Assembly: GCA_027484265.1 (NCBI GenBank)
Contig: JAIXTH010000085.1
Span: 1-33,922 of the forward strand
Direction: 5' to 3'
DNA: 33,922 bases
Source of the DNA: Alphaproteobacteria bacterium
GTDB taxonomy: Bacteria; Pseudomonadota; Alphaproteobacteria; Caulobacterales; Aquidulcibacteraceae
The notes beneath the pieces were generated by a model. The model was given only the letters and a program-made list of their open reading frames with translations. It did no database searches and had not been told where the DNA came from. Of the stretch, positions 26,228-28,174 are shown piece after piece. Numbering within the stretch: position 1 is the stretch's first letter; every line of letters begins with the position of its first letter. Made by a program: the position numbers and the translations under genes.

Positions 26228-26908
26228 ATGATCATCCTCGGCATCCTGGGCCTTGCCCTCCTTCTGGCGCTGGTGTTCGGCCCGCAGTGGTGGGTGCGGC
26301 ACACGATCCGGCGCCATGGACGCCACCGCCCGGATCTGCCGGGAACCGGCGGCGAGCTGGCCCGGCACCTGCTGGACCAGGCCGGTCTTGGCGATGTGCG
26401 GGTCGAGGAGACCACCGAGGGCGCCGACCACTATGACCCGATGGAACGGGCGGTGCGGCTGTCGCCATCGGTGATGGACGCACGCTCGATCAGTGCGGTG
26501 GCGATCGCAGCCCATGAGGTCAGCCATGCCCTGCAGCACCGCGACGGCGATGCGCTGCTGGTGACCCGCACCCGCTGGGCCACCACGCTGGGATGGGTGG
26601 ACCGGGCGGCGTTCTTCATCCTGATGTCGATCCCGGTGCTGGGGCTGATCCTGCGCTCGCCGCTGCTGGTCGTGGTGCAGATCGGAGCGATCGTGCTGCT
26701 GATGGGCGGACGGGTGCTGGTGCATGTGCTGACCGTGCCGCTGGAGATCGATGCCAGCTTCAAGCGGGCTCTGCCGCTGCTGCAGGCGGGCGGCTATCTG
26801 CCGGCAGGGGACATGGGGGCAGCGCGGTCGGTGCTGCGAGCGGCGGCGGCCACCTATGTGGCATCCGCGATGGCGACCCTGCTCGATATCATCCGCTGGA
26901 TTCGCTAG
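26228..26908 (+). CDS. Membrane zinc metallopeptidase (YugP-like)
   Basis: The 226-residue product begins with a membrane helix (MIILGILGLALLLALVFGP) and has the zinc site AAHEVSHALQH, an HEXXH motif with a third conserved His. Two more helices follow at about 127-150 and 155-180. DHYDPMERAVRLSP and LPLEIDASFKRAL-type blocks (here VPLEIDASFKRAL) are typical of the YugP/Zn-peptidase family. The ATG at 26228 is preferred to the upstream GTG at 26177, which adds residues without family support. It is divergent from murQ. The substrate is unknown. Confidence 0.92.
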   Translation: MIILGILGLALLLALVFGPQWWVRHTIRRHGRHRPDLPGTGGELARHLLDQAGLGDVRVEETTEGADHYDPMERAVRLSPSVMDARSISAVAIAAHEVSHALQHRDGDALLVTRTRWATTLGWVDRAAFFILMSIPVLGLILRSPLLVVVQIGAIVLLMGGRVLVHVLTVPLEIDASFKRALPLLQAGGYLPAGDMGAARSVLRAAAATYVASAMATLLDIIRWIR

Positions 26909-26947
26909 CCGCGGGGCAGCCGGGGCAGCAGACAAAGAGCAGCAGAC

Positions 26948-26982
26948 AAAAAAATGGCCGCGCCTGGCGAACCGGCGCGGCC
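26948..26982 (-). terminator. Rho-independent terminator
   Basis: Perfect 9-bp stem (GGCCGCGCC at 26956-26964 with GGCGCGGCC at 26974-26982, plus-strand reading), with seven A residues at 26948-26954 that become a U-run on the minus strand. It terminates the candidate small RNA and/or the two-gene glycosyltransferase transcript. Confidence 0.9.
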
Positions 26983-27046
26983 TGCTCGGATGAACCGAGT
27001 CCAGAAGGCGTCTCCTCCCCGAAACGCCGCAGGCCCGAAGGCCTAC
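26948..27046 (-). ncRNA. Candidate structured small RNA
   Basis: On the minus strand this gap forms four stem-loops in order. First, GUAGGCC-UUCG-GGCCUGC (27046-27029), with a cUUCGg tetraloop. Second, GGCGU/ACGCC (27028-27007), with the loop UUCGGGGAGGAG. Third, CUCGG-UUCAU-CCGAG (26999-26985). Fourth, a 9-bp stem at 26982-26956, followed by AUUUUUUU. The last is a textbook rho-independent terminator. The flanking genes end at 26908 (plus strand) and 27149 (minus strand), so the RNA is either its own unit or the processed 3' tail of the glycosyltransferase transcript. A TTGACT lies at 27081-27076, but the -10 is poor. I recognise no Rfam family. No protein frame with a ribosome site is present. 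Confidence 0.5.
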
Positions 27047-27075
27047 ACGGACTGTGTCGCAATGTGTCATTTGTG

Positions 27076-27081
27076 AGTCAA
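27076..27081 (-). promoter_or_regulatory. Possible -35 element of the small RNA
   Basis: CTTGACT occurs on the minus strand, with TTGACT at 27081-27076. A -10 at 17 bases spacing would be GACACA, a weak match, so this rests on the -35 alone. The start site would then fall close to 27046, exactly where the first stem begins. Confidence 0.25.
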
Positions 27082-27148: not shown

Positions 27149-28174
27149 TCAGTCACCGCCGCCGCCTCCGCCACCATCACCGCCGCCCCCGCTACTGTCG
27201 CTGCCATTGCTGCCGTTGCTGTCAGCGACGGTATCGTTCCCCCATTTGCTGGAAGCACCGCCGCCACCGAAGCTGCCGCCCTCGCCATCGCCGTCGGGTG
27301 ACCGGTCCAGCCGTGTGCCCACACTGTCGCCGCCGGGGGCGGACAGGCCAATAGTGGTCATGCCGCCATCATCGTCGCCCTTGCGCCGGGCATCGGCTCG
27401 GGCTGCCCGCGCCAGAATGCGCCGCTCCCAGTGCTTGGCCACCCGCCAGAACCGGTAGGAGGCATAGTTCATGGCGGTGATGAAGCCGTAGGTGCCGCGC
27501 AGCACGTGGCGGCGCTGGAAATAGGCCTTGAGGAAGGCGAACGGGAACTCGAGCAGCAGCCGGATCCACGGCAGCCTGCGGCCCCGGATATCGAGGTCCT
27601 CGGCCTGCATGTCGGAATAGCGGTTCAGCTTCTCCATCGTGTGCCCGATGGAGCGCGAGCAGTAATGCAGGATCCGGCCCTTGAGCTTGCGGGGCACCAC
27701 GCCGGGTTCGAGCTTCACCCGGTCATGCACGATCGAGTCTGCATAGCGTCCGGTGCTGCGGTGCCAGAAGCGGACGATGTCGTCGGCAAAGGCCAGGCCG
27801 TGGGGGATGGTCTCGCCGGGGAACACCTCGACGATATTGAGGCGGTAGGCGGCGGGCTGCGGCGGGCCGCTGGCGAACAGGTCGCGCAGGGCCTGCGCCA
27901 TGTCGGGCTGCATCACCTCGTCGGCATCCACATTCAGCAGCCAGTCGTGGCGGCACTGGTCCTCTGCAAAGCGCTTCTGCGGGCCGTAGCCGGGCCAGTC
28001 ATGGTGGATCACCCGTGCGCCCGCCCCCGCGGCAATGTCCTGGGTGCCGTCGGTGGAGCCCGAGTCCACCACCACGATCTCGGCCACCAGCCCCTGCAGG
28101 GCTGCCAGAACAGGTGGCAGCCTGTCGGCTTCGTTCCGGGTGATGATGAAGGCAGAGATCGGCAGTGGTTGCAT
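27149..28174 (-). CDS. Family 2 glycosyltransferase (WaaE/KdtX-like) with a low-complexity tail
   Basis: The 341-residue product has a GT-A domain: ISAFIITRNEADRL, VVVDSGSTDGT, the metal-binding DAD at 83-85 (LLNVDADEV) and RFWHRSTGRYADS. These match the LPS-core glucosyltransferase-like group of family 2. A hydrophobic/basic amphipathic region at about 200-245 probably touches the inner membrane. Residues about 266-341 are unlike the family: a Gly/Asp/Ser-rich, Lys/Arg-poor tail ending in seven Gly and an Asp. The enzyme is 21 bases downstream of the GT4 gene and they form one transcript ending at the terminator near 26950. It probably adds a sugar to lipopolysaccharide or another surface glycan. 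Confidence 0.92.
   Translation of the reverse strand: MQPLPISAFIITRNEADRLPPVLAALQGLVAEIVVVDSGSTDGTQDIAAGAGARVIHHDWPGYGPQKRFAEDQCRHDWLLNVDADEVMQPDMAQALRDLFASGPPQPAAYRLNIVEVFPGETIPHGLAFADDIVRFWHRSTGRYADSIVHDRVKLEPGVVPRKLKGRILHYCSRSIGHTMEKLNRYSDMQAEDLDIRGRRLPWIRLLLEFPFAFLKAYFQRRHVLRGTYGFITAMNYASYRFWRVAKHWERRILARAARADARRKGDDDGGMTTIGLSAPGGDSVGTRLDRSPDGDGEGGSFGGGGASSKWGNDTVADSNGSNGSDSSGGGGDGGGGGGGD

Follow-up and report, generated by a model that had tools for sequence, protein, structure and literature searches.

The window, i.e. the whole stretch of 33,922 nucleotides that was analysed, carries on its minus strand a predicted small RNA of about 99 nt (26948–27046). It is placed between a glycosyltransferase (GT2) gene (27149–28174, minus), which ends at 27149, 102 nt upstream of the RNA and on the same strand, and a plus-strand Zn_peptidase_2 gene that converges on it and stops at 26908. 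Long open reading frames crossing the RNA were discarded as mechanical frames of GC-rich DNA. The genuine minus-strand gene beyond the RNA appears to resemble MurQ, judging its translation by eye. The GT2 protein has a long C-terminal tail of low complexity, rich in Gly, Ser and Asp (...GGGGDGGGGGGGD).

Four stem-loops in tandem make up the RNA, and both folding and inspection of the sequence place them, together with the 9-bp terminator stem and the T7 tail, exactly where an earlier note had located them. SL1 (27029–27046, minus, as all features listed here) is a 7-bp stem, GTAGGCC-TTCG-GGCCTGC, closed by the cUUCGg loop pointed out in that note. SL2 (27007–27028) is composed of GGCGTTTC-GGGGAG-GAGACGCC with the 5' arm GGCGUUUC, and reads GGCGUUUCGGGGAGGAGACGCC in full. 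It is followed by SL3 (26985–26999), a 5-bp stem CTCGG-TTCAT-CCGAG, and by an intrinsic terminator (26956–26982) with the stem GGCCGCGCC...GGCGCGGCC and the terminal T7 run (26948–26954). The predicted RNA has a minimum free energy of -58.6 kcal/mol, compared with a mean of -43.4 kcal/mol (sd 3.5) in shuffled sequences (z -4.33), and none of 200 shuffles was as good. The stable UUCG loop is incidental, and SL2 is the informative element.

A -35 element TTGACT is located at 27076–27081, and a 17-nt spacer, as inferred for Caulobacter CrfA, leads to the presumed -10 position GACACA (27053–27058), which is off-consensus, in agreement with the weak -10 reported in the earlier note. With a further 6-nt gap, the predicted start falls on 27046, the first base of SL1. 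This start was derived by matching residue numbering to C. crescentus CrfA, which fits identical spacer and gap arithmetic and in which the SL2 loop begins at G49 of the published numbering (PMC12559287). Of 138 distinct homologues, 134 carry TTGAC at a distance of 50–85 nt before SL2 (4% expected from shuffles), and its spacing is the same in the closest relatives. Since GACACA is a poor -10, an activator may be involved. A scanner for consensus promoters and terminators called neither at the RNA, because its rules demand a better -10, and because the terminator stem is bulged in its upper part and separated from the T-run by an A. A candidate regulator site, the palindrome GTGACANNNTGTCAC, lies across the spacer and -10 of the crfA-like promoter in genus g6 (e.g. 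L003 and L010 among the Aquidulcibacter/Phycosocius loci); only a degenerate half of it is kept in the window.

Conservation of the stems was assessed in two alignments. Among nine sequences of the window's own family (f1), 14 cells showed changes in both partners of a pair, a value reached in none of 500 shuffles, with four compensated pairs in SL1 and two in the terminator. Four families contributed 36 distinct homologues to the second alignment, in which 92.5% of cells were paired (73.3% in shuffles) and 146 cells were double-sided (46.8 ± 4.7 in shuffles). Having been fitted to the model, this larger alignment is biased in its favour, while the nine-sequence alignment is free of such fitting. 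Double-sided changes in the larger set concern all seven pairs of SL1 and all nine pairs of the terminator, the latter being 96% paired. A plain MAFFT alignment with flanks misplaced SL3 and the terminator and was replaced by a trimmed alignment together with a covariance model. SL2 is near-invariant across the order: the 5' arm and the loop do not vary, and core pairs change only between A and G, in the 3' arm. Because the 5' arm is identical to the alphaR8 site, these changes preserve both the hairpin and the pairing with alphaR8. No general conservation was found for SL3, which can be aligned in close relatives only. The homologue alignment proposed in the earlier note therefore revealed compensated SL1 and terminator stems, and not stems changing without compensation. 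Of the four stems that it listed, SL3 is the sole one without wide conservation.

As one exact copy, SL2 occurs in 48 of the 60 genomes of f1. In f3, which CrfA scores and named records indicate to be Caulobacteraceae, it is exact in five of ten genomes and has one mismatch in the other five. Exact SL2 was also detected in two f4 genomes, and the covariance model found it in the f2 genera g308 and g316; it was not found in the sampled f5 genomes. In the rest of the class, two of about 380 genomes (G109, G367) have a match with one mismatch each; neither is accompanied by a promoter or terminator, and both were dismissed as chance. A match at a contig end was noted in a "Clostridia" MAG (L142). 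Named carriers among the matches listed comprise Caulobacter, Phenylobacterium, Brevundimonas, Asticcacaulis, Aquidulcibacter, Phycosocius, Pseudaquidulcibacter, Terricaulis, Maricaulis and other Caulobacterales. In genome G018, the CrfA-like gene is followed in tandem by a further, incomplete copy (TCGGGGAGGAAGCGCC and tail; L014, about position 1650 up to the end of the contig), which may be a duplication or an artefact of the assembly end. One Caulobacteraceae-type genome gave, besides its full CrfA, a second weak CrfA match (G046:C9:31565-31690, 24.8 bits), possibly a paralogue or chance.

The genomic setting of the RNA is variable, and a search for synteny conserved over the whole group found none. 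Upstream of the RNA, genus g13 carries the same GT2 gene (51–54% identical), and other lineages carry different genes (monooxygenase-like, his genes and others). In Caulobacter, Asticcacaulis and Maricaulis (L116, L140, L115), the crfA-like gene was seen by eye downstream of hisS/hisZ/hisG; this location suggests the ancestral position, in place of which the window and g13 have GT2. These observations bear on the alternative that the RNA is merely the 3' UTR of the GT2 gene with its terminator. The RNA persists where the upstream gene changes, TTGAC stands between the two in nearly all homologues, and conservation extends beyond the terminator to SL1 and SL2, so that this explanation is very unlikely, even with a same-strand gene only 102 nt away, a terminator that could be shared by read-through, a weak -10 and the recurrence of GT2 in g13.

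Comparison with Rfam using cmscan gave CrfA (RF01527) as the best match by E-value (33.6 bits, E 1.2e-4), running end to end over 26942–27046, and this is the only RF01527 match in its own genome. No Rfam family passes its gathering threshold for the RNA, the RF01527 cut-off being 38 bits, and the covariance search suggested in the earlier note was thus productive below that threshold only. The RF01527 gathering score is reached by ten genomes, all in f3, and by none in f1. A covariance model built without Caulobacteraceae (R1) recovered CrfA in a Caulobacter-type genome at RF01527's own place, with 35.8 bits. At about 33 bits, R1 picks up alphaR8 genes as well, so weak R1 matches alone are not specific; those with about this score in family f2 (e.g. 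G041) fall on alphaR8 genes and were left out of the CrfA count.

Two traits of CrfA were recognized in the RNA: the second hairpin, with its GGGGAG loop on the GGCGUUUC/GRRACGCC stem (27028–27007), and complementarity to the core of the alphaR8 sRNAs of the same genome. An independent gene with its own promoter and intrinsic terminator is predicted, TTGAC and terminator being conserved and the -10 weak. On these sequence grounds, the RNA is a divergent CrfA homologue, from a Caulobacterales MAG outside Caulobacteraceae. As the cut-off is missed and the working likeness is strong, we use the term "CrfA-like homologue" and do not claim formal RF01527 membership. The earlier label of an uncharacterised small RNA is accurate in that the locus is an ordered, selected sRNA gene, and it needs correction in that the RNA is of the CrfA type, whose mechanism was published in 2025 (PMC12559287). 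Membership in alphaR8/suhB (RF00519) was rejected, as the UUUCCUCCCU core is absent and its complement is present (17.1 bits, cut-off 41).

Caulobacter CrfA (RF01527) is a sponge sRNA of carbon starvation, with a mechanism worked out in 2025: in C. crescentus its hairpin captures the alphaR8 sRNAs SisA-D at GGCGUUUCCUCCC, and SisA-D protect CrfA residues G49-C63 (PMC12559287). Two alphaR8 genes were identified in the window's own genome, G000:C203:3708-3807 (44.4 bits) and G000:C67:6864-6941 (40.4 bits, just under the RF00519 cut-off of 41), and both contain GGCGTTTCCTCCC. The second of them (L093) is located, by eye, between isocitrate-dehydrogenase-like and flagellin-like genes, away from the N-formylglutamate amidohydrolase gene that is the usual neighbour of the family. 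The 11-mer GCGTYTCCTCC occurs three times in the 3.07 Mb genome, in the two alphaR8 genes and antisense of SL2, and its reversed control does not occur there. The predicted binding stretch GGGGAGGAGACGCC, formed by the SL2 loop and 3' arm (27007–27020) and corresponding to G49-C63 of CrfA, pairs with the two alphaR8 RNAs over 15 and 13 contiguous positions. Shuffled runs of complementarity, G-U allowed, reach 17 and 14, and the argument therefore lies not in run length but in the uniqueness of the 11-mer and in conservation. The computed net binding energies, -12.1 and -14.5 kcal/mol (6 and 1 of 300 shuffles as good, respectively), both weaken to -3.3 when the loop is swapped in silico to UUCG, the change made in the published mutant CrfA-M2. 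The alphaR8 core is identical in genomes in which CrfA was not found; CrfA thus appears to follow alphaR8, not the reverse. Hfq was not found in the window's own assembly (87% complete). It is present in 35 of 37 genomes searched, including each of the 33 with a completeness of 90% or more.

This specificity also weighs on what SL2 would bind. Activation of TonB-receptor mRNAs through direct pairing with their 5' UTRs is the earlier CrfA model, reported in PMC12559287. The perfect 11-base complement of SL2 in the window's own genome is confined to alphaR8 genes, though, and in C. crescentus no CrfA-mRNA chimeras were found, the effect was traced to SisA, and all target effects were reported lost on deletion of the alphaR8 genes (PMC12559287). 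Direct mRNA activation is accordingly highly improbable for this RNA. The G/A-rich SL2 loop might also act as a Shine-Dalgarno mimic that binds ribosomes or an RNA-binding protein instead of an sRNA, and GGGGAGGA does look like a Shine-Dalgarno sequence; conservation continues, however, into the 3' arm (ACGCC), which is superfluous for such a mimic and used in alphaR8 pairing, making this reading extremely unlikely. Finally, chance hairpins of GC-rich intergenic DNA, which folds easily (as the shuffle mean of -43.4 kcal/mol illustrates), are already refuted by comparative data, with z -4.33, covariation and near-invariant SL2 all supporting the earlier preference for an RNA.

We consider it highly likely that the locus is a stand-alone CrfA-like sRNA gene whose product is an alphaR8 sponge acting through SL2, and the RNA of about 99 nt is probably linked to carbon supply. 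The minus-strand transcript would expose GGGGAG in the SL2 loop, and loop and 3' arm would pair, probably on Hfq, with the core GGCGUUUCCUCCC carried by both alphaR8 sRNAs (suhB/MmgR family). Such pairing would mask the alphaR8 anti-Shine-Dalgarno seed and probably trigger alphaR8 decay, so that the presumed mRNA targets of alphaR8 would be released. Carbon starvation may be the inducing signal, by analogy with the C. crescentus RNA. In a broader frame, the CrfA-alphaR8 sponge circuit is likely an ancient Caulobacterales module, older than Caulobacteraceae, in which selection froze one 22-nt hairpin, with loop and 3' arm capturing alphaR8 and the 5' arm repeating the alphaR8 site, while the rest of the RNA, the terminator and the genomic position turned over.

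The 2025 revision of CrfA function, from mRNA activator to sponge, came from one species (PMC12559287). Retention throughout the order of exactly the hairpin that binds alphaR8 is independent comparative support for the sponge reading, and indicates that selection holds the sponge site fixed. The family reaches beyond Rfam detection, as most homologues outside Caulobacteraceae escape the Rfam CrfA model. A simple search motif for homologues is TTGAC, 50–80 nt, GCGTTTCGGGGAGGARRCGC and a terminator.

Among known systems, QrrX of Vibrio (cited in PMC12559287) likewise sequesters a family of sibling sRNAs, an analogy of function only; it is not known to be related in sequence, hosts or signal. 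With alphaR8/suhB/MmgR (RF00519, including SisA-D), the RNA has in common GGCGUUUC and a GGCCGCGC-type terminator, which account for the weak RF00519 cross-match of 17.1 bits; unlike alphaR8, it bears the complement of the core instead of a single-stranded UUUCCUCCCU, and alphaR8 is its predicted ligand, not the same RNA. It differs from CrfA in length (about 99 nt, the model having 136 positions), in score (33.6 against the cut-off of 38) and in a terminator without the CGAUUAUCCCC loop. Compared with Caulobacter CrfA, sequence is not conserved outside SL2 and the gene neighbourhood is different, with GT2 in the window and his genes upstream at the Caulobacter, Asticcacaulis and Maricaulis loci (by eye). 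Shared with CrfA (RF01527) are the order of hairpins, the SL2 sequence GGCGUUUCGGGGAGGRRACGCC, complementarity to the alphaR8 core, a single copy per genome, TTGAC about 35 nt before the start, and the terminator.
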